This document shows, one piece after another, positions 5,339-36,480 of a DNA stretch of 64,000 nucleotides. A program made the position numbers and the translations under genes. Within the stretch, counting starts at the first letter, position 1, and each line of letters begins with the position of its first letter. The stretch comes from Planotetraspora phitsanulokensis. Lineage in GTDB: Bacteria > Actinomycetota > Actinomycetes > Streptosporangiales > Streptosporangiaceae. The notes beneath the pieces were generated by a model. That model was given only the letters and a program-made list of their open reading frames with translations, was not told the DNA's origin and searched no databases. The stretch spans positions 124,001-188,000 of the forward strand of contig NZ_BOOP01000007.1 in NCBI RefSeq assembly GCF_016863295.1. Direction: 5' to 3'.

Positions 5339-5773
5339 GTGAACGACGACGAACTGGAGGAGTCGCTGCGGCGCGCCGCGGAACTTCTCGACCCGGTGCC
5401 GGTCTCCCTCGTGGAGGTCGCCGTCGAGGCGTTCCGGTTCCGGACCGTCGACGCCGAGCTGGCGGAGCTGACGTTCGACTCCCTCGCCGGGACGGCGGCC
5501 GTCCGCGGCCCGGCGCAGGCGCGCGTGCTCGGCTTCGGCGGGCCGGAGACCGGTCTCGATCTGGAGATCACCGGGGACGGGCCGTCCCGCCGTGTCGTCG
5601 GCCAGGTGACGCCGGCGGCTCACGCGGTGGTGGAGGTCCGGGGCGGCGACCCGGTGTCCGTCAGCACGGACGCGTTCGGCCGGTTCACCGTGGACCGGGT
5701 CCCGCCCGGTCCACTGAGCTTCCGCTGCCGTGTCGGCGACGCCGTCTTCACGACGGAGTGGGTCACCGTCTGA
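5339..5773 (+). CDS. Small beta-sandwich protein of unknown function, sigma-factor partner (carboxypeptidase-regulatory-like)
   Basis: 144 residues, GTG start with GGAGGG upstream, 28 bp after the sigma gene and probably co-transcribed. The N-terminal third is helical (ELEESLRRAAELLDPVPVSL) and ends in the motif LTFDSLAG. The rest is beta-rich and ends in DAFGRFTVDRVPPGPLSFRC and TEW, like the regulatory beta-sandwich of carboxypeptidases. There is no signal peptide or membrane segment. It shares a DP-x-P-x-SL motif, T[FY]DSLAG, DA[FL]GRF and a DAV-x-x-TEW end with the protein at 36025-36480. Its position suggests an anti-sigma or adaptor role, but no classical zinc anti-sigma motif (HxxxCxxC) is present, so function is inferred from context only. 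Confidence 0.8.
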   Translation: MNDDELEESLRRAAELLDPVPVSLVEVAVEAFRFRTVDAELAELTFDSLAGTAAVRGPAQARVLGFGGPETGLDLEITGDGPSRRVVGQVTPAAHAVVEVRGGDPVSVSTDAFGRFTVDRVPPGPLSFRCRVGDAVFTTEWVTV

Positions 5774-5791
5774 CCGGGCCGAAGACCGAGG

Positions 5792-6562
5792 TCAGGCCTT
5801 GAGCCGGGCCTCCCACAGGGCCACCCACGTCCGCTTGTCCACGGCCCCCGTCGCGTCGAAGCCCTGGCTCGTCTGGAAGCTCCTGACGGCCGCCCTGGTG
5901 TCCGGGCCGAAGTCTCCGTCCACTCCGGCGGGCCCGAGCGAGAACCGGCGGCGGCGGAGCTTCTCCTGGACACGCCGCACGTCGGCGCCCTTCTGCCCCT
6001 GCTTGACCGTGCCGGGGAAGCCGGGGGCGTCTCCCAGCTCGGCCAGGACGGCGGTGACCGAGAGATTCGGCACGGACGGCCTGCCGTCGTACGCCGGACG
6101 GCCGTAACCCACCACGAAGGCGTCCGTCCGCCGGTTCCGCACGCAGGCGTCGCCGATGTTGCCGTCGATCGTCTGGATGTCGCGCGTCGAGCGGACCTTC
6201 TCGACCGTGGCGACATGGTCGATGGCGTCGATCCTCCTGCCGCCCGACCAGTCGAAGAAGACGATGTCGCCGGGGCGGATTCCGGCCGTCCCCGCGTGCC
6301 ACCGGCCGTCGTCCTTGAACCACTGGGCATGGCCCACGGTCCAGGCGAAGTCGCCGACCGCGGCGAGCATGTCCTTGCCGCCCGCGGCCATCGCGCACTG
6401 GGCGATGTACATGTCGCACCACGCGCCCTTGTCCCAGGCGTCCGCGGGCCGCAGGTCCTTCCGTTCGCGGAAGGAGGCCCCGAAGACGGTCCTCATGCTC
6501 GCGGGCTCCCGGTACCCGAGGTACCTGGTCATCTCCTTCAGCAGCTCACTGGGTCTGGGCAT
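5792..6562 (-). CDS. CHAP-domain amidase with C-terminal peptidoglycan-binding domain
   Basis: 256 residues. The first 140 contain a CHAP (NlpC/P60-like) cysteine peptidase fold with Cys49 (DKGAWCDMYIAQCA), His116 (IDHVATVEKV) and Asn135 (TIDGNIGD) as the likely triad. Residues 188-252 form a PF01471-type peptidoglycan-binding domain (GQKGADVRRVQEKL, GVDGDFGPDTRAAVRSFQ). It should cut peptide bonds in peptidoglycan. The ATG at 6562 has GAGGTGG upstream. No signal peptide is visible, so secretion would need another route or lysis, or the true start is different. It overlaps a small acidic reading frame by 17 bp, suggesting coupled translation. Confidence 0.85.
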   Translation of the reverse strand: MPRPSELLKEMTRYLGYREPASMRTVFGASFRERKDLRPADAWDKGAWCDMYIAQCAMAAGGKDMLAAVGDFAWTVGHAQWFKDDGRWHAGTAGIRPGDIVFFDWSGGRRIDAIDHVATVEKVRSTRDIQTIDGNIGDACVRNRRTDAFVVGYGRPAYDGRPSVPNLSVTAVLAELGDAPGFPGTVKQGQKGADVRRVQEKLRRRRFSLGPAGVDGDFGPDTRAAVRSFQTSQGFDATGAVDKRTWVALWEARLKA

Positions 6563-6677
6563 CGCGCGCCACCTCGCGATCCATCTCGTCGTAGTCGGGC
6601 TCCTCGAAGTCCTGGGGCGGATCGTCCGGTGACGGGTCCGGCACAGGTCGCGGCTCGACGGGCAGGTGTTCATCCAT
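6546..6677 (-). CDS. Small acidic Pro/Asp-rich protein overlapping the CHAP gene start (43 aa)
   Basis: Short frame beginning MDEHLPVEPRPVPDPSPDD and ending EVARDAQTQ. It is strongly acidic and proline-rich, with almost no hydrophobic stretch. It runs into the CHAP start with a 17-bp overlap (6546-6562), the usual arrangement for coupled translation. A purine-rich GGGGAC precedes its ATG. It could be a leader peptide or a small partner of the hydrolase. No family is recognised, and the main doubt is whether it is translated at all. Confidence 0.45.
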   Translation of the reverse strand: MDEHLPVEPRPVPDPSPDDPPQDFEEPDYDEMDREVARDAQTQ

Positions 6678-6770
6678 GTCCCCATATGACCGGTCGGTGG
6701 GCGTGCCGGTCATGAGTACCCCCCTACTCCTTCGGGTCCCGCCGACGACGGGACCCGGGGAGCCGGAGAG

Positions 6771-7166
6771 TCAGTGCGCGAAGTCGGCGGCGAGCCCCAT
6801 GCCGCGCAGCAGCGTGGGCCGGTCGTAGTACTCCAGCCACTCGGTCACGTGGCCGTCCTCCACCGACAGCACGCCGACGGCGGGCACCTCGCCGTGATGG
6901 CCCTTCACGTCGAACACGTCCCGCCGTTCGATGAAGACGCGGCCGTCGACGACGCCCATCGTCCTGATCTCCAGAGTGATCCGCTCGAGCCCGTCCGTGA
7001 GCGCGGCCAGCCGCCCGCGGATCGCGTCGCGGCCCACGATGGGATCCTGCATCACGCTGTGGAGCACGCCGTCCGGCGCGAAAAGCTCCACGACCCGCTC
7101 CCAGTCCATGGTGTTCCACGCCTCGACCATGTCGCGGGCCACCTGCAGGCGCGCGGCGTCGTCCAT
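6771..7166 (-). CDS. SnoaL/NTF2-fold protein
   Basis: 131 residues with the cone-shaped NTF2 fold signature: an N-terminal helix ending WNTMDWERVVELFAPDG, followed by strands around VDGRVFIERRDVFDV and a C-terminal VTEWLEYYDRP. This superfamily includes SnoaL cyclases, limonene-epoxide hydrolases and ketosteroid isomerases. In catabolic clusters they often act as isomerases, hydratases or lactonases. The start has a good GGAGGAG ribosome site. It follows the acyl-CoA ligase gene by 29 bp on the same strand and is probably in the same transcript. The reaction cannot be read from the sequence. Confidence 0.85.
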   Translation of the reverse strand: MDDAARLQVARDMVEAWNTMDWERVVELFAPDGVLHSVMQDPIVGRDAIRGRLAALTDGLERITLEIRTMGVVDGRVFIERRDVFDVKGHHGEVPAVGVLSVEDGHVTEWLEYYDRPTLLRGMGLAADFAH

Positions 7167-7195
7167 CTCGTCTCCTCCGCTGTGTGTAGGGGGTG

Positions 7196-8872
7196 TCAGG
7201 CGATCTCACGGCGGAGTTCGCGCTTGAGGATCTTGCCGACGGGGTTGCGCGGCAGGACGGCCCGCACCTCCAGCCGTTCGGGCAGCTTGTAGGAGGCGAT
7301 CCTGGCCGCGCGGAGGTGCTCGAGGAGGTCGTCGAGGGTGACCTCGGCGCCCTCCTTCGGCACGACGACCGCGCAGACCCGCTCGCCGAGAACCTCGTCC
7401 GGATAGCCGACGACGGCGACGTCGGCGATCCCCGGATGGGCCGAGAGCAGTCCCTCGATCTCCGCGGGGGCGATGTTCATGCCGCCGCGGATGATGAGGT
7501 CCTTGGCCCGGTCGACGTACCGGAGGAACTCGCCCTCCTCTCCGTCGATGACGAAGACGTCACCGGTCCTCAGGTAGCCCTGCTCGTCGAACGGATCGGG
7601 CAGGCGCTCGCCCTTCAGGTAGCCGGCGAAGACCGTCGGGCCCTTGAGCCGCAGCTCCCCGGGTCGGCCCGGCTCGGTGACCTCCTCGCCCGTGTCCGGG
7701 TCGACGAGCCTCACCGACACCTGGCGGGAGATCCGCGAACTCCACGTCACCCCCGCCGCTCCGTACCGGGGGAAGTAACGGGCGCGCTGCTCGGGATCGG
7801 GCACGTCGTGCGGGTCGGTCAGCAGCGCGATCCCCTCGTTCGAGCCGAAGAAGTTCACGATGCCGATCCCGTGGACGTCCTGCCAGCCCTTCACCATTGA
7901 GGGCGGGAGCGGCGCGGAGCCGGAGCCGATCAGGCGGAGCGAGGAGATGTCGGCGTGGGCCAGCAGGTCCGCGCGAGCCAGCAGCAGCGACAGGAGCGCG
8001 GGCGGCGCCACCGTGTAGGTCGCGCGCTCCTCCGCGATCTGCGCCAGGAAGGTGGGCAGGTCGAACGGGTGATGCTGGACCAGCACGCCGCCCACCCGCA
8101 GCCACGGCAGGAACATCCCGTTGATGCCCGCCATGTTCACCATGGGGAAGGGATTGAGCAGCACGTCGTCGCCGGTCAGCCGGGGCGCGTCCACCGTCGC
8201 CCAGCTCATCGCCAGCCAGTCGTAGTGAGTGCGCGGCACGCCCTTGGGGGTGCTCTCCGTCCCCGACGTCCAGCAGATGGTGACGCAGTCGTTCGGGTCC
8301 GCCGAGTGCGCGGCCGCGTGGTCCTCCACGAGCCGGCGCGCCTCGTCCGGATCGGTCGCGGCCAGCTCGGCGTCCAGCTCCTCCCCGTACGCGAGGACCG
8401 TCCTCAGGCCGGGCAGGGCGGCGCGGACCTCGTCGGCCGGGCGGCGTTCGCCGAGCCGCGCGACGGTGACGAACCCCGCGAACTCGGCGAGGGCGCCCAG
8501 CTCCGTGACCTCGTGCTCGCGGTACTGCACCGGCAGCGGCGAGACCACGATCCCCAGCCGCCAGCACGCGAGGTAGACGGTGACCAGCTCGACGGTGTTG
8601 GGCAGTTGCACGCCGAGCACGTCGCCCGCGCCGAGCCCGTGCCGCAGGAGGACGGCGGCGAGGCGGTTCACCTCCGACTCGAGCTCCCGCCAGGTGAGCC
8701 GCCGCGGCGGGAGACCGAGCAGGTCGCCCTTGTTGCGCGGGTCGACGAGGGCGAGCCGGTCGGGCTCGGCGCCGACCCGGACACGGAACAGGCCATCCAT
8801 CGTCTCGTCGCTCCACCAGCCCAGGCGGGTGTACTCCTCGACCCGCTCCGGCGCGTGCAGCCCCCGGGTCAC
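7196..8872 (-). CDS. AMP-dependent acyl-CoA synthetase/ligase
   Basis: 558 residues, full length for the ANL superfamily. Motifs in order: ICWTSGTESTPKGVPRTH (phosphate loop), NFFGSNEG, the adenylate-binding YLRTGDVFVIDGEE, the hinge RAKDLIIRGGMNIAPAEIEG, and the catalytic Lys in NPVGKILKRELR. It activates a carboxylic acid through an acyl-adenylate and transfers it to CoA. Overall it resembles cyclohexanecarboxylate/2,3-dihydroxybenzoate-type ligases rather than long-chain FadD. The GTG start lies downstream of GAGGGG. A regulon motif at 8998-9014 and a TTGACG promoter element lie upstream. Substrate is inferred only as a cyclic or aryl-alkanoic acid from the surrounding catabolic genes. Confidence 0.93.
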   Translation of the reverse strand: MTRGLHAPERVEEYTRLGWWSDETMDGLFRVRVGAEPDRLALVDPRNKGDLLGLPPRRLTWRELESEVNRLAAVLLRHGLGAGDVLGVQLPNTVELVTVYLACWRLGIVVSPLPVQYREHEVTELGALAEFAGFVTVARLGERRPADEVRAALPGLRTVLAYGEELDAELAATDPDEARRLVEDHAAAHSADPNDCVTICWTSGTESTPKGVPRTHYDWLAMSWATVDAPRLTGDDVLLNPFPMVNMAGINGMFLPWLRVGGVLVQHHPFDLPTFLAQIAEERATYTVAPPALLSLLLARADLLAHADISSLRLIGSGSAPLPPSMVKGWQDVHGIGIVNFFGSNEGIALLTDPHDVPDPEQRARYFPRYGAAGVTWSSRISRQVSVRLVDPDTGEEVTEPGRPGELRLKGPTVFAGYLKGERLPDPFDEQGYLRTGDVFVIDGEEGEFLRYVDRAKDLIIRGGMNIAPAEIEGLLSAHPGIADVAVVGYPDEVLGERVCAVVVPKEGAEVTLDDLLEHLRAARIASYKLPERLEVRAVLPRNPVGKILKRELRREIA

Positions 8873-8997
8873 CGGTGGCCCCCTCGGGCGCCGCCGCGAA
8901 CCGCGGCCTCCGGGGCTCTGTGCGTTCTGTGCATCCCGACGTCGCTCCCCTGTGAGTTCCGTACGGCTACCGGCACTGTGTTGCCGGTCACAGCGTT

Positions 8998-9014
8998 ACT
9001 ACAGCAGACAGAGT
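8998..9014. promoter_or_regulatory. Cluster operator copy 1 (CTACA-N6-AGAGT)
   Basis: ACTACAGCAGACAGAGT. Read on the minus strand it sits between a TTGACG -35 (9018-9023) and a TAGTAA element about 18 bp on, so it overlaps the spacer and -10 region of the acyl-CoA ligase promoter. The same 17-bp motif recurs at 9075, 19949 and 20007. It lies in the 303-bp gap between the ligase and the divergent SnoaL gene, which holds no other gene. Confidence 0.6.
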
Positions 9015-9074
9015 GATTGCGTCAACGGGCCGCGGCCTGGTCGAAACTCGTCCGCAATCAACCCTGGCCGGGTA

Positions 9075-9091
9075 ACTCTCTTAGTTGTAGC
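9075..9091. promoter_or_regulatory. Cluster operator copy 2 (inverted, ACTCT-N6-TGTAG)
   Basis: ACTCTCTTAGTTGTAGC on the plus strand is the reverse orientation of the same motif, 77 bp from copy 1. Here it would overlap the -10 region of the promoter for the plus-strand operon starting at 9176. Each divergent promoter therefore has its own copy. Confidence 0.6.
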
Positions 9092-9175
9092 GTGATGCCG
9101 GGCCTGTCCCATCGGCCGCTCCCCCGGACGGCGAGACGGCCACACGGTGAGGCGGACACGGTGAGGAGGCCGGGC

Positions 9176-9709
9176 GTGACGGACCGGTTACGGGAGCTGC
9201 TCGACAAGCAGGACATCTACGAGGTGCTGGCGCGCTATCTGCGCGCGGTCGACCGGGGTGACATCGCGGGCGTCGCCGCCTGCTACCTCCCCGGGGCCAC
9301 CGAGGACCACGGCGGCGTGTTCAGCGGCAGCGCGGCGGACTACGTCGCGAGCGTCGCACCCGTGGTGACCCATCCGCGCGGCCGGACCATGCACTGCATG
9401 ACCAACGTGCTGATCGAGCCGGGCGACGATCCCGACACCGCCCAGGCCGAGTCGTACGTGACGACGTTCACGCGGGTGCGCACGCCCGACGGTCCCGGCC
9501 ACTCGTTCGTCGGCGCCCGCATCATCGACAGGTTCGAGCGCCGCGACGGCCGCTGGGGCATCGCGCACCGCACGCTCGTGTGGGAGTGGAGCCACGACGC
9601 GCCCGCCGCCGAGACGTGGATCTTCGGCATGCTCGCCCCGGACCCCGCCGTGCTCGTGCGCGGCGGCAAGCATCCGGACGACCCGGTGTACGGCGGAGCG
9701 GCGAAATGA
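9176..9709 (+). CDS. SnoaL-like (SnoaL_4/NTF2-fold) protein
   Basis: 177 residues. The opening ELLDKQDIYEVLARYLRAVDRGD and later HGGVFSGSAADYV, TMHCMTNVLIEPGDD and SFVGARIIDRFERRDGRWGIAHR are typical of the SnoaL_4 group (PF13577), which includes ring-hydroxylating dioxygenase beta-like and isomerase-like members. GTG at 9176 follows GAGGAGG. The stop overlaps the next gene's ATG (ATGA). It is first in a five-gene operon (9176-13922) divergent from the ligase and likely provides a dehydration, hydration or isomerisation step. The specific reaction is unknown. Confidence 0.87.
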   Translation: MTDRLRELLDKQDIYEVLARYLRAVDRGDIAGVAACYLPGATEDHGGVFSGSAADYVASVAPVVTHPRGRTMHCMTNVLIEPGDDPDTAQAESYVTTFTRVRTPDGPGHSFVGARIIDRFERRDGRWGIAHRTLVWEWSHDAPAAETWIFGMLAPDPAVLVRGGKHPDDPVYGGAAK

Positions 9710-10461
9710 TCGAGCTGGCGGGCCGGGCCGCACTCGTCACCGGCGGGAACAGGGGCATCGGCAGGGCGTTCGTCGAGGAGTTGCTGGCCCGCGGGGCGGC
9801 CAGGGTCTACGCGGGCGCGCGCGACCCCGGCGACGTCGATCCCGCGCTCGTCGACGCCGGTGCCGTTCCGGTCCGGCTCGACGTCACCGACCTCGCCCAG
9901 GTGGCCGCGGCGGCCGGCACCTGCTCCGACGTGTCCGTGCTGATCAACAACGCCGGGCACTTCGCCAATCGGCGCCTGGTGCTGACCGACGACCCGGCGG
10001 CCGCCAGGACCGAGATGGAGGTCAACTTCTTCGGCACGCTCAACATGATCCGCGCGTTCGCACCGGTGCTCGCGGCCAACGGCGGCGGCGCCATCGCCAA
10101 TGTGCTGTCCGTGGCGGGCATGGTGCCGACCCCGTTCATGGGCGGGTACTCGACGTCCAAGGCCGCCGCGCTGTGGCTCGGCACCATCGCCAGGGCCGAG
10201 CTGGAACCGCAGGGCACGCAGGTCACCTCACTGATCGTCGGCTCGGTCGACACCCGGATGGCCGCGCACGTGGACGGGCGCAAGGAGGACCCCCGTGACG
10301 TCGCGCGGGCCGGCCTGCGCGCGGTGGAACGCGGCGAGAACGTCGCCGACACCGACTGGATGGCCGTCGACGCCCGGGCGCGGATGGCCCGCGACCCCGG
10401 CCGCTACGAACGGCAGCTGGCGAAGCTGCTGCACGCGCCGACGTTGAGAACCGGACGATGA
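9706..10461 (+). CDS. Short-chain dehydrogenase/reductase (SDR)
   Basis: 251 residues, classical SDR. TGGNRGIG (cofactor loop) is near residue 13 and INNAGHF near residue 83. The catalytic Ser is in VLSVAGM and the Tyr-Lys pair in YSTSKAA. The cofactor loop is followed by YAGARD, which favours NADP(H). It should interconvert an alcohol and a ketone. Four-base ATGA overlaps on both sides show tight coupling with the SnoaL and VOC genes. Substrate is unknown. Confidence 0.92.
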   Translation: MIELAGRAALVTGGNRGIGRAFVEELLARGAARVYAGARDPGDVDPALVDAGAVPVRLDVTDLAQVAAAAGTCSDVSVLINNAGHFANRRLVLTDDPAAARTEMEVNFFGTLNMIRAFAPVLAANGGGAIANVLSVAGMVPTPFMGGYSTSKAAALWLGTIARAELEPQGTQVTSLIVGSVDTRMAAHVDGRKEDPRDVARAGLRAVERGENVADTDWMAVDARARMARDPGRYERQLAKLLHAPTLRTGR

Positions 10462-11186
10462 GCTCGCCCGAACTCGTCCAGGCGACCGTCGCGGTCCACG
10501 ACCTCGCCGCCGCCGGGATCCGGGAACGGCTCGGGCTCGCCCCGGGCTTCGCCGACCCCGAGCTGGCCGCGTGGGAGATCGCGAACGAGGTGTTCACGCT
10601 CGGCGACACCTACCTGGAAGTCGTCGCCCCCTCCGGCCCCGGGTCCCGCCTGCACCGCTTCCTCGAGGGCGGAGCAGGCGGCTACCTGGTCGCCTTGCGC
10701 GTCCCGGACGCGGCGGCGCTCGCCGAGCGGTGTGCCGCGCTGGGCGTGCGGATCGTGCACCGGCAGGACCTCGCCGGAGCGGCGATCCTCCAGCTTCACC
10801 CCGGCGACCTCGGCGTCCTCGTCGAGGCGGACGAGATGCCGCCCGGGCGCGCCTGGCACTACGACACGTGGGACACGCCGGGCCGCTCACCGGACGCGCG
10901 GGCGGGCGACCTGGTCGCCGTGGACGTGGCCGTCGCCGATCCGGCCGCCATGGCGGTGACGTGGTCCCGCCTGTTCGGACTCCCCGTGGTGGACGAGGCG
11001 GTGGCAGGCGGCACCGCCGGGGGCCGGGCCGTGCGGGCCGGGCGTGGGCTGGTCAGGTTCGTCCCCGCGTCAGGCAGACGCGGCCTGGTCGCGCTGGACC
11101 TGCGCGCGCCCGAGGCCGGCGTGATCGAGACCGCCGGGCTGACCATCCGTCTCGTCCCTCATGAGATCACGGAAGGAGCCGCGTGA
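10458..11186 (+). CDS. VOC-superfamily (glyoxalase/dioxygenase-fold) protein
   Basis: 242 residues with two beta-alpha-beta-beta-beta units typical of VOC proteins: residues 1-100 (VQATVAVHDLAAAGIRERLG, FTLGDTYLEVVAPSG) and 145-235 (VAVDVAVADPAAMAVTWSRL). The first half contains the EVVAP segment common in glyoxalase-like PF13468 members. Metal ligands cannot be assigned with certainty, so it could be a lyase, epimerase or non-catalytic binder. It lies inside a string of ATGA-overlapping genes and so belongs to the same pathway. The start overlaps the SDR stop. Confidence 0.8.
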   Translation: MSSPELVQATVAVHDLAAAGIRERLGLAPGFADPELAAWEIANEVFTLGDTYLEVVAPSGPGSRLHRFLEGGAGGYLVALRVPDAAALAERCAALGVRIVHRQDLAGAAILQLHPGDLGVLVEADEMPPGRAWHYDTWDTPGRSPDARAGDLVAVDVAVADPAAMAVTWSRLFGLPVVDEAVAGGTAGGRAVRAGRGLVRFVPASGRRGLVALDLRAPEAGVIETAGLTIRLVPHEITEGAA

Positions 11187-12328
11187 CCATCCGCGTCGTC
11201 CAGTGGGCCACCGGAGCGATCGGCAAGACCTGCCTGCGGGCCGTGCTCGACTCCCCCGAACTCGAACTCGCCGGGCTCTTCGTCTACGGCGACCGCAAGG
11301 CGGGGCGCGACGCGGGCGACATCGCGCGCCGTCCCCGCACCGGGATCATCGCCACCCGCGACAGGGACGAGATCCTGGCCGTCCCCGCCGACGTGGTCGT
11401 GCACACGCCGCGGCTGCAGGTGCCGTACGAGACGCACGACGCCGACATCCTCGCGCTGCTGCGTTCCGGCAAGAACGTCATCACGACGGCGGGCAACCAC
11501 TTCCCGCGCGCGCACGGCCGGGAGCGCGAGCAGATGTTCCTCGCCGCCTGCGCCGAAGGCGGCACCACGCTGTACGGCGTGGGCATCAGCCCCGGCGTCA
11601 TCGGCGAACGGCTGGCCCTCGCCCTGTCCGGCGTCTGTCTCGACCTGGACCGGATCACCATCGACGAGGTGCTGGACGCCCGCCGGATGCCCGATCCGAA
11701 CTTCGTGTTCGACGTGATGGGCATGGGCTCCGACCCCGCCGCGATCGACCTGCGCGAGGGCGAACTGCCCCGGCTGTACGGCCGGCTCTACACCGAGACG
11801 CTGGCGTTCATGGCCGAGCGGATGGGCCTCTCCGTCGACTCCTACGAGCCCGACCACCGCGTCGAGCCCGCCGTCCGCGACCTGGAGGTGGCGGCGGGGA
11901 CCATCAGGAAGGGCACGGTCGCGGCCACCGAGTGGCGCTGGCACGCGCTGTCCGCCGGCCGGCGCGTTCTCACCCTGTCCATCGTCTGGACCATGGACCC
12001 GGCCATGCCGCGTTACGCCGGGCGCGACCACTGGACGGTGACCGTGACCGGCAGGCCGGGTCTCACCATGACGCTGAACCTGGTCGAGCCCGACGACCCG
12101 CTCAGCAGGACCACCGCCGCGCAGTTCGTCACCGCGGGGCCGGTCATCCGCGCGATCCGCGACGTCGTGGCGGCGCCGCCGGGCGTCTTCGAGCCGCCCG
12201 TCTTCGCGCCGTACACCTTCGCCTCCGACGGAGGCTCCCACGGCGCCTCCGACGGCACCTTTGACGACACCGCCACGAGCCCCACCGAGAAGACCGCCGC
12301 GAACACCACCCCCGAGGGGACATCGTGA
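11183..12328 (+). CDS. DapB-like NAD(P)H-dependent dehydrogenase family protein
   Basis: 381 residues. The N-terminus VVQWATGAIGKTCLRAVLD is a Rossmann dinucleotide-binding loop of the dihydrodipicolinate-reductase/2,4-diaminopentanoate-dehydrogenase type. HTPRLQVPYETHDADIL and GKNVITTAGNHF follow. The last 30 or so residues are low-complexity Gly/Ser/Thr and look like a disordered tail. Family members occur in actinobacterial steroid, terpenoid and aromatic catabolic clusters, where they probably reduce or oxidise C=N or C=C-containing intermediates. GTG start overlaps the VOC stop; the stop overlaps the next GTG. The reaction is not known. Confidence 0.82.
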   Translation: MTIRVVQWATGAIGKTCLRAVLDSPELELAGLFVYGDRKAGRDAGDIARRPRTGIIATRDRDEILAVPADVVVHTPRLQVPYETHDADILALLRSGKNVITTAGNHFPRAHGREREQMFLAACAEGGTTLYGVGISPGVIGERLALALSGVCLDLDRITIDEVLDARRMPDPNFVFDVMGMGSDPAAIDLREGELPRLYGRLYTETLAFMAERMGLSVDSYEPDHRVEPAVRDLEVAAGTIRKGTVAATEWRWHALSAGRRVLTLSIVWTMDPAMPRYAGRDHWTVTVTGRPGLTMTLNLVEPDDPLSRTTAAQFVTAGPVIRAIRDVVAAPPGVFEPPVFAPYTFASDGGSHGASDGTFDDTATSPTEKTAANTTPEGTS

Positions 12329-13938: not shown

Positions 13939-14021
13939 CCTCGATCACCGGATGTGATCTTCCCTCATACACAGGGTGCACCTGGCGTCCCAGATGTCAC
14001 ATACCGATCGCAAGGAGGTGT

Positions 14022-29517: not shown

Positions 29518-29996
29518 GACCTACCTCACCGAGCCTTTCGAGATATCCCTGCGCGCACTGCGAGCCGCCGCGGCATGGAGGATCCGCACGGAGGCGATCC
29601 GCTTGGCGATTGCCACGATGTCTCCCTTCGACGGCATCGCCTCCCCCAGCGGGAGCCCGGCGAGTCGGCCCGGTGCTGCGGAGCCGGCCTGCGATGCTTA
29701 CTGAAAGTAGTTCTCCAGTTACTTATCGTTTACACATCTGAGCGATCAATCAATGGTTCTTGGCCCTTCTGAAGGACCATCGGGTGAGACACGGAACGCG
29801 ATCGACCCGCTACGGTGCGCCTTGACAGTGACCGCCACCGGCCTAAACTCGCACGCATGAATAGACGTTCACACGTCATGCGGACGACCTCCCGCTCACG
29901 CCCGGCGCCGCCACCCGCCGCCGCACGAGCGCGCGGAGCCCGCCGGGCGGAGGGGACGGCTCAGATCTCGCGCCGGCCACGACGAGAGGGCCGGGC
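29518..29996. other. 479-bp divergent intergenic region of the metal locus
   Basis: No convincing gene. It separates the DivIVA/ZIP operon (minus) from the CDF exporter (plus). It contains an AT-richer pocket at 29700-29760 and a 19-bp near-palindrome at 29761-29779 (TGGCCCTTC/GAAGGACCA, one mismatch). A good promoter with a TGAA-N6-TTCA dyad lies near the exporter and is listed separately. Short frames here have poor codon use and are ignored. Confidence 0.6.
29822..29871 (+). promoter_or_regulatory. Promoter of the CDF gene with an ArsR/SmtB-like dyad at the expected start site
   Basis: TTGACA (29822-29827), 16 bp, then TAAACT (29844-29849) is a good housekeeping promoter. TGAATAGACGTTCA (29858-29871) lies where transcription should begin. 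Its TGAA-N6-TTCA symmetry resembles metal-responsive ArsR/SmtB operators (CzrA, NmtR, KmtR types). No ArsR gene is in the window, so the binding protein would be encoded elsewhere. Confidence 0.5.
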
Positions 29997-31178
29997 ATGA
30001 TCGACCGTGACAGCCAGCACGAACACGGCCACGGGCATGGGCATGGGCATGGGCATGGTCACGGCCACGGCCACGGCCACGGGCACGGGCACGGGCACAC
30101 GGTGGGCGTCGACGCCGACAGGCGTCTCCTCGGCGCCGCGCTTGCGCTCATCGTCGCCTTCATGGCCGCCGAGGTGGTCGTCGGCCTCGTCGCCCGGTCA
30201 CTCGCGCTGATCTCGGACGCGGGCCACATGCTCACCGACGCCATCGCGATCGTCTTCGCACTGATCGCGATGAGAGTCGCCGCCCGGCCGCCACAGGGCG
30301 GCTTCACCTACGGCCTCAAGCGCGCCGAGATCGTCTCCGCGCAGATCAACGGCATCACGCTGCTCCTGCTGGGGGCGTACTTCGTGGTCGAGGGCGTCCG
30401 GCGGCTGATCGCGCCCGCCGAGGTCGAGGGCGCCTACGTGGTGGCCACAGGCGTGGCCGGGATCGTCGTCAACCTCGCCGCCACGTGGCTGCTCAACCGG
30501 GCCGACCGGAGCAGCCTCAACGTCGAGGGCGCCTTCCAGCACATCCTCAACGACCTGTACGCCTTCATCGCCACCACGGTCGCCGGCGCGGTCGTCTGGC
30601 TCACCGGCTGGGGAAGGGCCGACGCCCTGGCCGCCCTCGTCGTCGCGGCGCTGATGCTGAAGGCGGGCTGGGGCCTGGTCCGCGCGTCCGGGCGGATCTT
30701 CATGGAGGCCGCCCCCGCGGGGTTCGACCCGGCCGAGATCGGCCGCAGGACCGCCGCGCTGGAGCACGTGGCCGAGGTCCACGACCTGCACATCTGGGAG
30801 GTCACCTCGGGATATCCCGCGATGTCGGCGCACATCCTGGTGGCCCCCGGAGCGGACTGTCACAGCGTCCGGCAGGCCGCCGAGCGGCTGGTCCGCGACG
30901 AATGGGGAATCGCGCACACCACCCTCCAGGTGGATCACGCCGCCCCGGAGGTGCTGGCCCTGGGCCGCGCGAAGCCCGGCCACTGCGCCGTTCCCCGGCA
31001 GGCCGGCGCGGCGATCACCACATCTGCTCCTTCCGCACCCGCCCCTTCCGCACTCGACGGCCTCACCGACTCCAGCCATCACGCCCGGCGGCAGGGGCCG
31101 GGCACGAAGCGGACGGCGGCTGACCATCCGAGTCCGCTCCCCGGAGGCAGCCCCTGCCAGGACAAAACTCGGCAATAA
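29997..31178 (+). CDS. Cation diffusion facilitator (CDF) zinc/cobalt exporter with poly-His N-terminus
   Basis: 393 residues. Residues 8-35 contain 14 His in HG repeats, a likely cytosolic metal sensor or store. Six membrane helices carry the CDF metal-site motifs DAGHMLTD (helix 2) and HILNDLYA (helix 5), the HxxxD pattern of Zn2+-selective ZitB/CzcD members. A ferredoxin-like C-terminal domain follows (VAEVHDLHIWEVTSGYPAMS). The last 60 residues are low-complexity with His and Cys. It should pump Zn2+ or Co2+ out in exchange for protons. ATG follows GAGAGGG. Its divergent pairing with a ZIP importer suggests balanced metal control. Confidence 0.95.
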   Translation: MIDRDSQHEHGHGHGHGHGHGHGHGHGHGHGHGHTVGVDADRRLLGAALALIVAFMAAEVVVGLVARSLALISDAGHMLTDAIAIVFALIAMRVAARPPQGGFTYGLKRAEIVSAQINGITLLLLGAYFVVEGVRRLIAPAEVEGAYVVATGVAGIVVNLAATWLLNRADRSSLNVEGAFQHILNDLYAFIATTVAGAVVWLTGWGRADALAALVVAALMLKAGWGLVRASGRIFMEAAPAGFDPAEIGRRTAALEHVAEVHDLHIWEVTSGYPAMSAHILVAPGADCHSVRQAAERLVRDEWGIAHTTLQVDHAAPEVLALGRAKPGHCAVPRQAGAAITTSAPSAPAPSALDGLTDSSHHARRQGPGTKRTAADHPSPLPGGSPCQDKTRQ

Positions 31179-31279
31179 ACCAGTTGCTCCCCATATCAGG
31201 ACTTTCGCCACTTTTTCGGCTGATGCGCCTCTCGCAAAGATGGATGCTGAGGGCAAGTAAACCGAAGGAGGCGATCCCG

Positions 31280-31699
31280 GTGATCACAGCGCGAGAGATC
31301 ATGCATCCTGGGGTCGAATGCGTGGGTGAGCACCAGACGCTCCGAGCCGCCGCTCTGCTCATGCGCGACCTGAACGTGGGCGCCCTTCCGATCTGTGGTG
31401 ACGACGACCGGCTGCACGGCATCCTCACCGATCGGGACATCGTGACCAAGTGCGTCGCGGTCGGCGGCGACCCGGCGACGACGACCGCGGGCCAGCTCGC
31501 GCAGGGCAAGCCCGTCACGATCCCGGCGGACGCGGATGCCGCCCAGGTGCTCCAGACGATGGAGGCCAGCCAGATCCGCCGCCTGCCCGTGATCGACGAC
31601 CACCGGCTCGTCGGCCTGATCACTGAGGCCGATCTGGCCCGCCACCTGCCCGAGGAAGAGGTCGGGCACTTCGTGGAGTCCATCTGCGCGACCCAGTGA
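31280..31699 (+). CDS. Two-CBS-domain protein
   Basis: 139 residues made of two CBS motifs: MITAREIMHPGVECVGEHQT to GILTDRDIVTKCV, and GQLAQGKPVTIPADADAAQV to GLITEADLARHL. CBS pairs bind adenosine nucleotides or S-adenosylmethionine and sense energy state; stand-alone pairs resemble mycobacterial hypoxic-response proteins. GTG at 31280 has a perfect AAGGAGG at 8 bp, which rules out the longer upstream frame from 31184. It may share the CDF transcript, 101 bp away. The target it regulates is unknown. Confidence 0.9.
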   Translation: MITAREIMHPGVECVGEHQTLRAAALLMRDLNVGALPICGDDDRLHGILTDRDIVTKCVAVGGDPATTTAGQLAQGKPVTIPADADAAQVLQTMEASQIRRLPVIDDHRLVGLITEADLARHLPEEEVGHFVESICATQ

Positions 31700-31705
31700 G
31701 CCTCG

Positions 31706-31738
31706 GCCGCCGGGGGGATCACCTCCCCTTCAGGCGGC
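31706..31738. terminator. Bidirectional hairpin between CBS and CHAT genes
   Basis: GCCGCC (31706-31711) pairs with GGCGGC (31733-31738), with an inner GGGG/CCCC pairing. It spans the short gap between the convergent stops at 31699 and 31730 and covers the CHAT stop codon. Confidence 0.5.
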
Positions 31739-34345
31739 TCCGATGGCGGAGAAGGACCATCCCGTGGCCTGGTGGAGCGCGGACGACGGTAGCGCCGCCC
31801 GTGCGTCGCGGAGGGCCTCGGCGAGCCCGTGCCCGTTCTTCAGCGCCCGGTGGAGGGCGACCATGAGCGGGACCACGGCCTCGTCGTGCACGGGGACCGA
31901 GCTGGCCACGATGCCCGCGGTGCCGAGGGGAAGGAGCGCGGCCGCGAGGCCGAGCAGCTCGTCCGCTCCCACCGGTTCGAGCGTGCCCGAGTCGCAGCTC
32001 GACAGGATGATCCGGTAGGGGGCGCTCCTGAGCCGTTCGAGGTCGTGCACGATCAGCGGGCCGTCGTCCATCTGCAACGAGGAGAACATCGGGCTGTCGG
32101 CGCGGAAGGTCCCGTGCGCCGCGATGTGGGCGATGCGGCAGCCGTCGATCTCCTTCAGCACGGCGTCGCCGCCGGCCCCGCCGTTCTCCAGCACGGTCGC
32201 CCCGCCGTACAGGCCCGCCAGGACCGGCACCTCCGCACCGCCGGTCGCGAGCCCGGGACCGCGGACGAGGACCACCCGGTCCCCGCGCGGCTCGATCCGG
32301 CGGGCGCGGAGCCACGTGCTCGCGGACGGCGACACGCTCAGCACGCGCTCCCGCAGTGCGGGCAGCAGTGCCCACGGCACGCCGTGAAGCGGCCCGGGCG
32401 GCACGACGACGACCGGGCCCTCCCCCAGATGTCGTACGGCGGGGCCGAGCAGGAGCTCCTGCAGCCGCAGCCCTGCCTCCTCGAGTAGCGCGACCCGTCC
32501 GCCCCGCCCCTGGTAGGCGAGCCTGCGCAGGGCAGCGCGCACATGCTCGGCCTCGGTCTCCGCGTCGGCGGCCCTCCCCGCCTGGAAGGCGCGGACCCTG
32601 GCGTTCCCGCAGAGCAGGACGTGCAGCCGGCCGTCGAGCGCGACGATCTCGACGAGCCGCCGGTCGCCGAGCTCGGAGAGCAGGGCCGCGACGTCCACCC
32701 GGTGGTCGGGGGCGGTTCCTTCGCTCCGCATCCGCAGGCTGCGCGCGCGGATGTCCCGCTCCAGGCGCTCCTGCTCCCTGCGCAACCACGGCACGGGCCT
32801 GCCGTCCGATCTGGCGGCCTCCACCCGGCTGGAGATCTCGCGGAACGCCGTCAGGTCCCGCTGCAACTCGGGATCGTCCGGCGGCCGTGCGGGCGGGACG
32901 GCGAGCGCGGCGGCGCGCCTGCGCTCGCTCCAGACGAGAAGCCGCCGCGGGTCGTCCGCGGTCGCCCGCTGCGCGAGCGTCGCGAGCTCGGCTCCGCGCG
33001 CGGTCACCCGGGCGCGCAGCTCCGGCGCTCCGAGCGTCATGCGGTGTTCGTCGAGCAGTTCGAGCCCCCGCCTGCAGGCGTCGAGCAGCCCTCGCCTCCG
33101 GCCTGCCGCGGCGGCCAGCAGCGCCTGGGCGACCCAGCCGTCGACTCGCGCGAAGGCCGGTCCCCGCCACCTCGCCTTCGCGGCGACGGAGAGGTGCGTG
33201 CCGGCGTCGGCCCCGCGGCCGAGGGCGGTGGCCGTACGGCCGGCCAGCAGGAACCCCTGGGCGGCCTCCGGCGACCCGAGCGCGGTGAGCCGCTCGGCGA
33301 CGGAGACCGCCTCCCGCAGGAGCGTCTCCGACGCCTGTCCGGCGGCGAGGCGGGCCTGGACGCGCACGAGCCGCGCGTGGACCTCCCACCATTCACGCCG
33401 CTGCGCGGAGAACGAGCGCACCGCGGCGTCGGCCCTGACCGCGGCCTCCTCGGGATCGCCTGAGTCGTTCAGCGCCCGCGCGGCGACGAGCATGAGCTCG
33501 GCTCTCCGGGTGGTCTGGCCGCCCAGCCGGTCGAGCAGTTCCGTCGCCGCGTCCGCCTCCTGGGCCGCCTCCCGCGCGAGCCCGGCCGCGAGCAGCGCCC
33601 CGCAGCGGGAGCCGGCCAGGACGAACGCGGGCGTCCCGAGCGCGGCGTAGCGCCGCGCCGCCTCGTCGAAGTGGCCGAGCGCCGCGGGTAGGTCGCCTGC
33701 GCGGAACGCGGCGAGCCCGCGGTTCTCCACGGCGACGGCCTTGTCGTGCTCCTGATCGGTGGCGTCCCACAGGCGCTCGGCGGCGGCGAAGTCGGCCTGT
33801 GCCCACTCGGCGGCGCCCATGGCCAGGTTGACGGTGGCGCGCAGGGTCAGCGCCCGCGCGCTCCAGATGACATCGCCGGCCCGCTTCAGAATGGGGATGG
33901 CGCGCCGCAGGTCCTCCAGCGCCTCGCGGTGGCGGCCGAGCACCCACAACGCGTACGACCGGCGGAACAGCACGCGGGCGAGCGTGACCCCCGTCCCGCG
34001 CGCCACCCCCTCGTCCAGGGTGCTCAGTCCCCGTCTCGTACGGCCGGCGTGTACGTATGCGGCGCCGAGGGTGGCGAGCACGTCGGCCTCGCGCTCGGCG
34101 GAGCCGGACCTCGCCGCGAGGCGCCGCGCGCGGCGCAGATGGGCGAGCCCGGCCGTGAGATCGCCGAAGTCGCGCTGCCATATGCCGATCACCTGGTGAG
34201 CGACGGAGGCCTCGTACGGCCCCCGCTCGGCGTCGAGCAGCGCGCGTGCCCGTTCGAGGGCCTCCCCCGGTCGCGCGAACACCAGGGGCAGCAGGTCCAG
34301 CGGATCCGGTCCGGACGGTCGCCCCGATGATCTTCCCGCGACCAC
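31730..34345 (-). CDS. CHAT-domain (caspase-like) protease with N-terminal TPR-like repeats
   Basis: 871 residues. Residues 1-480 are helical repeats with TPR character (GLAHLRRARRLAARSGSAER, EALEDLRRAIPILKRAG, AALGHFDEAARRYAALGTP). Residues 590-871 are a CHAT domain, the caspase/separase-related peptidase fold. The likely dyad is His744 in AHIAAHGTFRADSPMFSS and Cys784 in RIILSSCDSGT. CHAT proteases are commonly effectors in bacterial conflict and cell-death systems. No signal peptide. The GTG at 34345 gives the full frame but lacks a strong ribosome site. It is divergent from the S8 protease gene across 128 bp and probably functions with it. Confidence 0.9.
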   Translation of the reverse strand: MVAGRSSGRPSGPDPLDLLPLVFARPGEALERARALLDAERGPYEASVAHQVIGIWQRDFGDLTAGLAHLRRARRLAARSGSAEREADVLATLGAAYVHAGRTRRGLSTLDEGVARGTGVTLARVLFRRSYALWVLGRHREALEDLRRAIPILKRAGDVIWSARALTLRATVNLAMGAAEWAQADFAAAERLWDATDQEHDKAVAVENRGLAAFRAGDLPAALGHFDEAARRYAALGTPAFVLAGSRCGALLAAGLAREAAQEADAATELLDRLGGQTTRRAELMLVAARALNDSGDPEEAAVRADAAVRSFSAQRREWWEVHARLVRVQARLAAGQASETLLREAVSVAERLTALGSPEAAQGFLLAGRTATALGRGADAGTHLSVAAKARWRGPAFARVDGWVAQALLAAAAGRRRGLLDACRRGLELLDEHRMTLGAPELRARVTARGAELATLAQRATADDPRRLLVWSERRRAAALAVPPARPPDDPELQRDLTAFREISSRVEAARSDGRPVPWLRREQERLERDIRARSLRMRSEGTAPDHRVDVAALLSELGDRRLVEIVALDGRLHVLLCGNARVRAFQAGRAADAETEAEHVRAALRRLAYQGRGGRVALLEEAGLRLQELLLGPAVRHLGEGPVVVVPPGPLHGVPWALLPALRERVLSVSPSASTWLRARRIEPRGDRVVLVRGPGLATGGAEVPVLAGLYGGATVLENGGAGGDAVLKEIDGCRIAHIAAHGTFRADSPMFSSLQMDDGPLIVHDLERLRSAPYRIILSSCDSGTLEPVGADELLGLAAALLPLGTAGIVASSVPVHDEAVVPLMVALHRALKNGHGLAEALRDARAALPSSALHQATGWSFSAIGAA

Positions 34346-34473
34346 GGCTCGATGTTAGACATGGAGTGACCGGCACGTCCACCCTCCGTACATGTCGCGG
34401 ATGTATCAGGCCGCCGGTCCGCGGCTCTCGTTCATGACGACCACGACATCCGGCTTCAGCGAGGAGCGGCCCC

Positions 34474-35991
34474 ATGGCGCCGAACAGGTTCAGAGAGCAG
34501 TTCGAGGTGATACGGCGGGCGTTCGCGGACGACCCCGTCGATCCCGTCCAGGTGACGATGAACGAGCCGGAAGGGCTCGTGTACGAGAAGACCCACATCA
34601 TCACGCGAGGCGACGACGTCGAGCAGGTTCTCACCCTGCTGAACGAGAGACTCCCCCGCAGCCGCCGCCGGATGATCCGGAACGCGGCGGATCCGGACAC
34701 ACAGCCGTCCGACACCTATCGCATCCAGGTCGGGGACCCCGCGGAGGAGACCGACGACGACGGCGGCGTGACCGAGGCGCTGAACGAGCTGCGCGCCGAG
34801 CGCAGCGCCCACGGGTCCTCACTGGCCACCATGAACCACGTCGTCAGCATCACCAACGTGAACTGCTGCCCCGCCGACGAGCCCGACACCGTCCGGGCGA
34901 CCGGCGAGGAGGCGCTGAACCCGGGCATCGCCCCCCGGATCGACTCCGAGGAGACCGTCGAGATCCTGGTGATCGACACCGGGCTCGTGAGCGACTACCG
35001 GAAGCACTCGTGGATCGCCGCCGGCACCGGCGAGCCCGCCGTCCCGGATTTCTTCGTCGGCGGCAGGCCGCGGGCCGGCGGGTCGTTGCCGGACATCGAC
35101 GTCGGCGGTGCGTTCAAGCCGCAGGAGACGTCGCCCGACGGGACGCTCCTCCAGTACGTCGGGCACGGCACGTTCATCCTCGGCCTGATCCGGGCCGTGG
35201 CGCCCACGGCGAGTGTGTACGTCCACAACGCGCTCCGGGGCGCCAAGGCGGGGGCCATCCTGGAGAACGACCTGGGCAACGTCCTGTTCGGCGTCATCGC
35301 GGAGCGCGGCTGGCCCGACATCCTCAGCCTGTCCGCCGGCACGGGGACGGCCGACCAGGCGGCGCTCAAGGGCCTCGAGCACTTCATGGAGCGGCTGCGC
35401 CAGACCAGGACCCTGCTGGTCGCCGCGGCCGGGAACGACGGCCTGGACAGGAGGTTCCACCCCGCGGCGTACGCGGGCGACCGTGACTTCCGCGACGCGG
35501 TCGTGTCGGTCGGCGCGCTGCGCAACGACGGGGACGCCAAGGGCGCCTGCTTCACCAACTACGGGCCGTGGGTCCGCGTGTACGCCCCCGGTGAGCGCCT
35601 CACCAGCGCCCTCACGGGGGTCGGCGAAGGCGTGCCGTACGTGTACCAGCACTCGACCTTCGACTGCTGCCGCTATCTCCCGGCCGAGGACGCCTACGAG
35701 GACTGCATCTGTCAGCTCCCCGGCCACACCGGCGTTCTCAGCACCGATCCGCCGGTGGGGAGCCGCACTGAGTTCACCGGCCTCGCGCGGTGGAGCGGCA
35801 CGTCGTTCGCCACGCCCATCGTCGCCGCCATGATCGCCAACCACATGCTCTGGAGCGGCGAGCGCAACCCGAGGGAGGCGGCGAAGGACCTGCTCGCCAC
35901 ACGTCACAGCCACGCGAAGGTGCGCGGGCGGGACGCCCTCGCGCTGATCCCCGAAACCTGGCGCCCCTTCGACTACACCCCCACCTCGTAG
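34474..35991 (+). CDS. S8 subtilisin-like serine protease, apparently cytosolic
   Basis: 505 residues. The triad is Asp168 (EILVIDTGL), His231 (YVGHGTFILG) and Ser444 (WSGTSFATPIVAAM), with oxyanion Asn321 (LVAAAGNDG). The N-terminal 150 residues (EKTHIITRGDDVEQVLTLLN and after) form a possible propeptide or docking domain. There is no signal peptide. A Cys-rich insertion (STFDCCRYLPAEDAYEDCIC) before the Ser motif is unusual. ATG follows GAGGAG. It is divergent from the CHAT protease and followed by the beta-sandwich protein. I infer a regulated intracellular proteolysis module; its substrate is unknown. Confidence 0.93.
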   Translation: MAPNRFREQFEVIRRAFADDPVDPVQVTMNEPEGLVYEKTHIITRGDDVEQVLTLLNERLPRSRRRMIRNAADPDTQPSDTYRIQVGDPAEETDDDGGVTEALNELRAERSAHGSSLATMNHVVSITNVNCCPADEPDTVRATGEEALNPGIAPRIDSEETVEILVIDTGLVSDYRKHSWIAAGTGEPAVPDFFVGGRPRAGGSLPDIDVGGAFKPQETSPDGTLLQYVGHGTFILGLIRAVAPTASVYVHNALRGAKAGAILENDLGNVLFGVIAERGWPDILSLSAGTGTADQAALKGLEHFMERLRQTRTLLVAAAGNDGLDRRFHPAAYAGDRDFRDAVVSVGALRNDGDAKGACFTNYGPWVRVYAPGERLTSALTGVGEGVPYVYQHSTFDCCRYLPAEDAYEDCICQLPGHTGVLSTDPPVGSRTEFTGLARWSGTSFATPIVAAMIANHMLWSGERNPREAAKDLLATRHSHAKVRGRDALALIPETWRPFDYTPTS

Positions 35992-36024
35992 CGGGCCGGA
36001 CGCTTCCGGCGAAGGGAGGGATCC

Positions 36025-36480
36025 GTGGACTCCGACGGCGACCGACTCGAAGGCGCCCTGTCCCGGGCCATGGAGTTCATGGATCCCCTGCCCTCCTCAC
36101 TCATCCCTCCGGCTCTGGCCGCGCACGCGATGCGGGCGGTGGACGACGAGCTCGCCCGGCTGACCTACGACTCACTCGCCGGGCCCCTGCCCGTCAGGAC
36201 GGGAGGCGCGACGCGTCTGCTCGCGTACGAATGCGGGGCGACCACCGTCGAGGTGGAGGTCGTGCACGGGGGCGCCGCCTCCACGATCGTGGGACGGCTC
36301 GTCCCGCCGCGACCCGCCGAGATCACGATCGAGACGCTCCCCGGAACCGGCGGCCCGGTCGCCGTCACCGCCGACGCCCTCGGCCGCTTCATCTGCGGCG
36401 GCGTCACCCGCGGGCCGTTCCGCATCCGGTGCCGCCTGGACGACGCGGTGCTCGTCACCGAGTGGACCGGCGGCTGGTAG
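36025..36480 (+). CDS. Small beta-sandwich protein, paralogue of the sigma-factor partner at 5.3 kb
   Basis: 151 residues, GTG start with GGGAGGG, 33 bp after the S8 protease and likely co-transcribed. A helical N-terminus (LEGALSRAMEFMDPLPSSLI) leads to LTYDSLAG. A beta-rich domain then ends DALGRFICGGVTRGPFRIRC and DAVLVTEW. It matches the 5339-5773 protein along its whole length (DP-x-P-x-SL, T[FY]DSLAG, DA[FL]GRF, RCR, TEW). One copy pairs with a sigma factor and the other with an S8/CHAT protease pair, so the family may link proteolysis to transcription or act as a substrate or adaptor. No enzyme motif is visible. Confidence 0.82.
   Translation: MDSDGDRLEGALSRAMEFMDPLPSSLIPPALAAHAMRAVDDELARLTYDSLAGPLPVRTGGATRLLAYECGATTVEVEVVHGGAASTIVGRLVPPRPAEITIETLPGTGGPVAVTADALGRFICGGVTRGPFRIRCRLDDAVLVTEWTGGW

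Follow-up and report, generated by a model that had tools for sequence, protein, structure and literature searches.

An actinobacterial gene module of an ECF-like sigma factor, a beta-sandwich protein and two proteases, found in two halves in Planotetraspora phitsanulokensis

Known protease-controlled sigma factors and the locus in the window

CRISPR systems are known in which a caspase-like protease releases a sigma factor (PMC10028731). In the type III-E system, according to the available text of its description, Csx30 inhibits CASP-sigma and is cut in a small flexible loop by Csx29, a TPR-CHAT protein (Strecker et al. 2022, PMC10028731). Here we analysed a stretch of 64,000 nucleotides from Planotetraspora phitsanulokensis (contig NZ_BOOP01000007.1, positions 124,001 to 188,000, forward strand), hereafter the window. 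It carries, in two halves, the genes of an extracytoplasmic function (ECF)-like sigma factor, a TPR-CHAT caspase-like protease, an S8 subtilase and two members, P0001 and P0002, of an actinobacterial protein family that we call sand (two N-terminal helices and a beta-sandwich). These genes belong to a real, recurrent module, and if the mechanism proposed below holds, to which we give a probability of roughly 0.5, the module is a protease-released sigma switch in a new form. Judged from its genes, the window holds a split copy of this recurrent actinobacterial module, proposed to be one of protease-controlled transcription, in which sand would hold sigma inactive and CHAT, alone or via S8, would cut sand.

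By its logic, Csx29-Csx30-CASP-sigma is the closest proven analogue; CRISPR components (Cas7-11, CRISPR RNA, Csx31) were not searched for around the sand module. Both systems encode a TPR-CHAT protease together with an ECF-type sigma factor and one further protein. Unlike the type III-E system, the sand module usually adds an S8 protease, and its hub protein has 144-151 amino acids, whereas residues up to 565 of Csx30 are named in the available text (PMC10028731). The sand profile matched no PDB chain named Csx30 at an E-value (E) of 10; whether the library holds such a chain was not checked. The proposed module also shares the logic of CalpL-CalpT-CalpS, the type III CRISPR Lon system, where a protease cuts the anti-sigma factor holding an ECF sigma factor and thereby frees the latter (PMC11417357). 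CalpL-CalpT-CalpS differs in that its protease is of the Lon type and carries a SAVED domain, and in its trigger, cyclic oligoadenylate; neither CHAT nor S8 appears in the accessible part of its description (PMC11417357). In the EACC2-caspase systems, proposed as conflict systems, a caspase domain goes together with an ECF sigma gene and with a TPR protein; going by the accessible text, they differ from the sand module in their adaptor, EACC2, and their TPR protein, DUF1822 (Kaur et al. 2021, PMC8195603). A word search of that paper gave no hit for 'subtilisin', and its hits for 'CHAT' were all beginnings of other words or of names; the available text of the earlier 2020 paper of Kaur et al. 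(PMC7159879) had 'CHAT' and 'sigma factor' 0 times. We found no description of the sand-sigma-CHAT-S8 set in the literature; its sigma group may be catalogued in the ECF reclassification (Casas-Pastor 2021).

Sand is unlike class I anti-sigma factors in consisting of two N-terminal helices and a beta-sandwich and in having no Pfam anti-sigma match. Class I anti-sigma factors are encoded directly behind an ECF sigma gene. In the SAVED-CHAT to PCaspase cascade, a CHAT protease reportedly activates a second protease, which acts on a sigma factor and its inhibitor. That cascade is said to be CRISPR-linked, with a caspase as the second protease, the role that we propose for S8 in the sand module.

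The features of the window that belong to the module are as follows.

2596..2622, plus strand: promoter-like site TGTATCA-N15-GCTCT, ending 8 nucleotides before the ATG at 2631
2631..4652, plus strand: LuxR-type regulator with an AAA ATPase-like domain (LAL), heading the gene row into sigma
4711..5310 (a later start at 4750 is possible), plus strand: ECF-like sigma-70 factor (PF04542, TIGR02937)
5339..5773, plus strand: P0001, sand family, with two helices, a strand, a loop and a beta-sandwich (paralogy, structure model)
5504..5506, plus strand: codon of the near-invariant loop arginine of P0001, Arg56 (Arg in 125 of 126 rows)
31730..34345 (the start may be 34282), minus strand: TPR-CHAT caspase-like protease (PF12770, TPR_12)
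31994..31996, minus strand: codon of CHAT Cys784, presumed catalytic (Cys in 120 of 120 aligned domains)
32114..32116, minus strand: codon of CHAT His744, presumed catalytic (His in 120 of 120 aligned domains)
34402..34428, plus strand: promoter-like site TGTATCA-N15-GCTCT, ending 45 nucleotides before the S8 start
34474..35991, plus strand: S8 subtilase with an N-terminal prodomain-like region; Asp168, His231, Asn321, Ser444 (PF00082, model)
36025..36480, plus strand: P0002, sand paralogue, starting 34 nucleotides behind S8; loop Arg58 at 36196-36198

The half with the regulator, sigma and P0001 is separated by about 26 kb from the half with CHAT, S8 and P0002, in which the S8 gene is divergent from the TPR-CHAT gene. 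An earlier note on this DNA, made from its letters, had placed one sand protein behind an ECF sigma gene and the other behind a subtilase divergent from a CHAT protein, and profile searches agreed on all three partners. The sigma protein matched PF04542 (E 7e-10, 39.1 bits, cut-off 24) and TIGR02937 (E 3e-16, 59.6 bits, cut-off 42.9); the Pfam profile search listed no region 4 match. The CHAT protein is a member of PF12770 (E 1e-29, 104.3 bits, cut-off 24), and its TPR_12 match, at 30.0 bits, was barely under the cut-off of 30.1. The S8 protein is a member of PF00082 (E 2e-15, 57.1 bits, cut-off 21.8) and not a type VII mycosin (TIGR03921, 47.7 bits against a cut-off of 278.75). In the LAL regulator, GerE was above its cut-off (E 2e-9), and AAA_16 and AAA_30 were below theirs. 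The regulator gene perhaps has a leaderless start, because the site ends so close to its ATG.

P0001 and P0002 both start with GTG. They share the motif pairs DPVPVSL/DPLPSSL, LTFDSLAG/LTYDSLAG and DAFGRF/DALGRF as well as RCR and TEW, and are 41% identical over 144 columns (BLASTP, E 1e-33), which rules out a chance resemblance; they are true paralogues with the motifs and positions that the note had given. A minus-strand frame was also read for each gene: that of P0001 is open and that of P0002 has two stops, antisense open frames being frequent in the G+C-rich window. The plus-strand frame is the conserved one and was therefore taken as coding. The note had called the two proteins otherwise unrecognised, and this is true at curated cut-offs: no named family in Pfam, NCBIfam or PADLOC stood above them. 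CarboxypepD_reg (PF13620) gave 23 bits with P0001 against a cut-off of 32.3 and was not listed for P0002, whose sole Pfam match, to GSK-3_bind, was senseless and sub-threshold (14.1 bits, cut-off 25). Neither protein had an NCBIfam or PADLOC match at E 1. PADLOC had none for the window sigma and CHAT proteins either; for S8 it gave PDLC03014 'subtilase' (30.7 bits) and IetS (15 bits, 22 residues only).

Recurrence of the module in Actinomycetota

An alignment of the first three sand members led to 64 loci, all in Actinomycetota; this search scanned for two short patterns only, so window congeners may be left out and other phyla are possible. A first sand search matched 43 of 60 relatives, and 32 of the 296 genomes sampled from the phylum. 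We then counted partners around 154 sand genes (67 from the 64-locus set, 35 from the phylum sample without the host genome G000, and 52 from the relatives; the sets overlap in species). The seeds of the profiles for sand, sigma, S8, CHAT and TPR came from the window and its genome, the profiles were then extended with loci that were later counted, and contig ends truncate some neighbourhoods. A sigma gene lay within 1.5 kb of 138 of the 154 sand genes, 135 of these being upstream on the same strand. Within 8 kb of sand, S8 was found for 117 and CHAT for 118. All three partners were near 96 sand genes and none was near 4. For the 35 sand genes of the phylum sample alone, the counts were 31 for sigma, 23 for S8, 24 for CHAT, 22 for all three and 3 for none.

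When the predicted genes of 151 loci were clustered, the joined sand/sigma cluster occurred in 147 loci, TPR-CHAT in 123 and S8 in 103, and the next cluster in 22. The immediate upstream same-strand neighbour of sand was sigma in 133 of 151 cases, with overlapping genes in 72, the gene calls and hence the overlaps coming from a home-made caller. The place of the sand gene right after sigma, in many cases with an overlap, suggests that sand acts as an anti-sigma factor, and its constant company with CHAT suggests a protease input. The earlier note had linked the family functionally to sigma and to both proteases and had named a neighbourhood survey as the check. That survey yielded a strong association with sigma, CHAT and S8 rather than the absence of one. 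The link to sigma and the proteases was thus strengthened, but S8 did not hold as a general part, as it was not found in some lineages. The further model of the note, in which the proteases would cleave a sigma-inhibiting or adaptor protein and a conflict signal would be the trigger, is a hypothesis. The sigma-sand-CHAT set looks like the core, with S8 not obligatory.

The complete set occurred in about a dozen gene orders and orientations, and such variation in order and strand argues against mere inheritance of one block. An association by shared inheritance of a gene cluster in related genomes, with no joint function, would agree with the many congener rows and the overlapping locus sets, which make the counts not independent. 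In view of the different arrangements, of the spread over many families of the phylum and of split modules that mostly keep both halves, we consider it very improbable.

Co-occurrence was also examined in whole genomes. With wider profiles, 42 of the 296 Actinomycetota genomes had sand (E 1e-6) and 42 had a module-type CHAT (E 1e-30), 40 genomes having both, in many families of the phylum (Fisher 1e-44, phylogeny ignored). This overlap is partly circular, because some of the 296 genomes themselves supplied rows to the sand (A2) and CHAT (A4) profiles, and the CHATs used to train A4 were neighbours of sand. (The CHAT rows numbered 32 after a 55% cut and 31 in A4; for S8, 103 full genes gave 77 rows after a 75% cut and 65 in A3.) Absences are soft, because only 13 (sand) or 8 (CHAT) candidates were scored per genome. 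Module-type CHAT without a listed sand was seen in G067 and G083, and a fetched locus of the latter (L215) does show a sand gene (E 6e-14). A cleaner check is given by six held-out CHAT loci of a family first listed without sand (L214-L219): sigma, sand, TPR, CHAT and S8 were present in 6 of the 6 fetched. CHAT of any kind was found in 22 of 100 genomes, with 43 matches, and among these 100 it occurred in 10 of 10 genomes with sand (first search) and in 12 of 90 others.

The host genome (9.17 Mb, G000) has 4 sand genes. Two are in the window, and the others lie in complete modules, one on C31 with the order CHAT-TPR, S8, sigma and sand (L003/L181), and one on C20 with S8, sigma, sand and TPR-CHAT (L213). 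In a tree, P0001 and P0002 fell into one supported clade of 21 rows, and the C31 sand into another part. Outside the genus, window sigma and P0001 on the one hand, and window CHAT, TPR, S8 and P0002 on the other, had their best matches in the same group of intact modules, namely those of Sphaerisporangium (L016), Streptosporangium (L017), Streptosporangiaceae NEAU-GS5 (L018) and Streptomyces (L019 and L026). Congeners have the same split (L013-L015, L021, L034, L188-L193). The simplest reading is that the window probably holds the halves of one ancestral module with a duplicated sand gene, and not two separate uses of the family.

Besides Planotetraspora, a lone sigma-sand pair clear of contig ends was present in G058, G139, G170, G210, G312, G327 and G337. 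A CHAT/S8 pair was found elsewhere in five of these seven genomes (L197, L198, L199, L201, L204). In G210 and G337, which carry a complete, remoter module as well (L200, L202), the partner of the lone pair is uncertain. The TPR-CHAT gene of G312 lies at the end of a contig (L205) and its S8 gene on a different one, and in G327 neither CHAT nor S8 of the module type was found. Splitting thus seems tolerated, with both halves mostly kept. Among side observations, an Acidimicrobiia assembly has a lone sigma-sand pair of the same kind (L025). Two sand genes surround one sigma gene in L020, and L024 and L062 each have two back-to-back modules, arrangements that suggest local duplication. In an 11.85-Mb record of Nonomuraea gerenzanensis, the only one that a plasmid search found, one stretch has CHAT, TPR, S8, sigma and sand; the distributed gene table is blank there.

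The place of P0002, 34 nucleotides behind S8 and without sigma, has parallels in the congeners and in four Acrocarpospora species. Such places would suit a sand protein that is mainly a partner of the proteases, either an adaptor or an inhibitor of CHAT or S8, with the sigma gene regulating its supply only. Beta-sandwich proteins can be protease inhibitors. Yet the loci that lack S8 keep sand, though CHAT remains there, and most loci have sigma and sand genes that overlap or are almost contiguous. Anti-sigma genes usually stand directly behind sigma. We consider a role mainly with the proteases quite unlikely.

The sand loop and the two proteases

After stretches of at most 400 nucleotides had been dropped, 154 sand sequences were left, 128 after an 85% cut, and 126 rows in the A2 alignment (without L172 and L179). 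The structure model of sand had a mean predicted local distance difference test score (pLDDT) of 91.7, with helices at residues 3-17 and 22-37 and a strand at 39-47, followed by a beta-sandwich. Residues 48-61 had no secondary structure, and the mean pLDDT of residues 51-60 was 74. No PDB or viral structure matched the whole fold at E 0.001, so the basis for the term beta-sandwich is the model, together with weak Ig/FN3-like matches.

The loop varies in length from 9 to 22 residues, and Arg56 was nonetheless kept in 125 of 126 rows. Some arginine was present in 126 of 126 loops, where 72% would be expected from composition, and a hydrophobic-Arg-small triplet in 117 of 126. When 8 remoter sand members were fitted to the profile, all 8 had the arginine too. 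Cleavage after Arg is known for several clan CD proteases. We regard this near-invariant residue, on the strength of the alignment, as a candidate cleavage or binding site. In the model, a cut at this position would part the helices from most of the beta-sandwich. In the congener loci, P0002 is 74-77% identical and P0001 86-87%, and the copy beside the proteases thus changes faster.

Both proteases look active, because their catalytic residues are conserved. In CHAT, both dyad residues were invariant (120 of 120 domains each). In S8, Asp was found in 117 and His and Ser in 118 of 118 domains. These counts left out CHAT and S8 domains below 90 bits, and sigma domains below 120 bits. The best PDB sequence matches of the window CHAT were chains named 'CHAT domain protein' (8d9f, 7x8a and others), at a weak E of 0.034 over residues 722-819; we take these chains to be Csx29.

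In the S8 model (pLDDT 88.0), residues 35-125, which precede the subtilase domain, form a strand-helix-strand-helix-strand region. Among the best PDB matches of the model are chains that carry a prodomain (1v6c, PCSK9 and unprocessed pro-subtilisin E), in alignments of 448-494 columns with gaps and a root-mean-square deviation of 7-10 A. The N-terminus, judged by eye, is unlike a signal peptide. S8 is therefore probably a cytosolic zymogen. A conserved arginine was also looked for at the boundary of the S8 prodomain, and the consensus had none.

In Planotetraspora kaengkrachanensis (L193, and L034 too), TPR-CHAT is 94% identical to that of the window and S8 only 50%; in two other congener loci S8 is 89-91% identical. 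From these identities, it looks like replacement or very fast change of this protease alone. In Pseudonocardia sp. CNS-139, a single open reading frame (ORF) of 741 amino acids joins CHAT and S8 (L033:13684-15906). It is only suggestive, as the nearby TPR and sigma parts are in broken frames. A joined sigma-sand ORF at the same locus was discarded as evidence of fusion, since its sigma part reads in two frames.

Promoter-like sites and the proposed switch

TGTATCA, in either direction, occurred in 28 of 62 non-redundant regions between divergent CHAT and S8 genes, where the commonest 7-mer of one shuffle, itself G+C-rich, reached 20. GTATC-N16-GCTC occurred in 17 of the 62; in three shuffles no pair of this kind exceeded 6. 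Two TGTATCA-N15-GCTCT sites lie in the window, one in each half, with none expected, and this suggests that one sigma factor drives both halves. In the whole genome there are three TGTATCA-N15-GCTC sites, including the two of the window, against 0 for the reversed pattern. The third was taken as chance, because its place is unlike an intergenic one, opposite an ORF of 527 amino acids.

In 144 loci (L181 and L187-L193 were left out), the strict site was upstream of S8 in 17 of 105 cases, of sigma in 15 of 143, of sand in 0 of 144, of TPR-CHAT in 0 of 127 and of unlabelled genes in 12 of 1770. For S8 and sigma taken together, the comparison with unlabelled genes has a Fisher value of 6e-21, phylogeny again being ignored. 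Of 86 looser sites, 29 precede S8, 15 sigma, 4 sand and 13 homologues of the LuxR-type gene; nine of the last 13 are distinct and the rest repeat sites of the window or its congeners. Such homologues stand behind the same kind of site near L018, L019, L026, L112 and L114. The window sigma factor probably reads the TGTATCA-N15-GCTC sites, and the motif suggests feedback.

From family membership, co-occurrence, gene order, catalytic residues, promoter-like sites and the loop arginine, all of them observed, we infer the binding, inhibition, cleavage, protease order, trigger and output of the following scheme. Sand would be made together with sigma, bind it and keep it inactive. A signal sensed through the TPR part would activate the CHAT protease. 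Either by itself or once it has turned on the S8 zymogen, CHAT would then cut sand in the exposed loop, at or near the conserved arginine (Arg56 in P0001). The cut would part the N-terminal helices from the beta-sandwich, and sigma would be freed. Free sigma would transcribe the protease operon and its own operon from the TGTATCA-N15-GCTC sites, resulting in positive feedback, and, as an output further downstream, would raise the LuxR-type regulator. P0002 would be expressed along with the proteases and might act as a decoy substrate, a brake or a second inhibitor.

Promoter-like sites in front of S8 operons also mean that the proteases could be ordinary members of the regulon. Sigma would then be upstream of the proteases only; sand would be uncut and act as a co-activator or ligand sensor, with CHAT and S8 as effectors switched on by sigma, for example in cell suicide, and the conserved arginine may have another role, as the example of Csx30 would allow. 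We consider this arrangement unlikely, since it does not account for the 11 sand genes with CHAT and S8 but no sigma within 1.5 kb, and since sand and CHAT, sharing 40 of 42 genomes each, are tied more tightly than would be expected of one target among many.

Several observations weigh against a switch released by cleavage of sand, or limit how general it may be. First, 17 of the 60 relatives, and G001, one of four same-genus genomes searched, had no sand match, and G327 and G294 have sand without a module-type CHAT. Second, 12 of the 154 sand genes have S8 (11 of them also CHAT) and no sigma within 1.5 kb; binding sigma may not be the only job of sand. Third, nine sigma-sand-CHAT loci of one family lack S8. 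In four genomes with such loci (G010, G014, G022 and G033) no S8 of the module type turned up at E 1e-20, and four more have only weak ones (80-92 bits), though G036 has two S8 genes at its other modules; a compulsory CHAT-to-S8 cascade is thus unlikely to be general. Fourth, the strict site precedes module genes in only 32 of 144 loci, 25 of the 86 listed sites precede other or unassigned ORFs, and neither of the two complete modules in the genome of the window, on C31 and on C20, yielded a site with the patterns used, the loose one included. (Inspection by eye showed TGTATCA in the C31 region, followed 14 nucleotides later by CTCC, an arrangement outside the searched pattern.) Fifth, five other sand loops hold Arg as well, in 23 to 89 of 126 rows, and the loop arginine may serve binding or folding instead. 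As Csx30 is described, none of the residues in its cleaved loop is essential by itself (PMC10028731), and by this precedent a conserved arginine is not the expected mark of a CHAT site.

A more specific version of the switch is tentative and rather doubtful in its full form. A CRISPR-independent cascade from TPR-CHAT to a cytosolic subtilase zymogen in Actinomycetota might cut a soluble beta-sandwich anti-sigma factor of a new class at its conserved Arg loop and so free the ECF sigma factor, with positive feedback through dedicated TGTATCA-N15-GCTC promoters; in Planotetraspora the inhibitor would have been duplicated, one copy being with sigma and one with the proteases.

If the switch proposed here exists, its form would be present in about one in seven of the sampled Actinomycetota genomes (42 of 296), which would make it a general actinobacterial signalling route. 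The genera with sand include the filamentous Planotetraspora, Nonomuraea, Kribbella and Streptomyces. It would also provide a family of soluble sigma regulators to test, and the site motif and the loop arginine make the module directly testable.

Two neighbouring genes were noted. In the window, a gene for a CHAP and peptidoglycan-binding protein (5792-6685, minus strand) converges on P0001 and shows no sign of a tie to the module. Beside the C31 module, a gene at L003:2001-2720 (minus strand; also L041, L181 and L187) looked papain-like by eye and had no Pfam match at E 0.01. This gene stays beside the module in congener loci.

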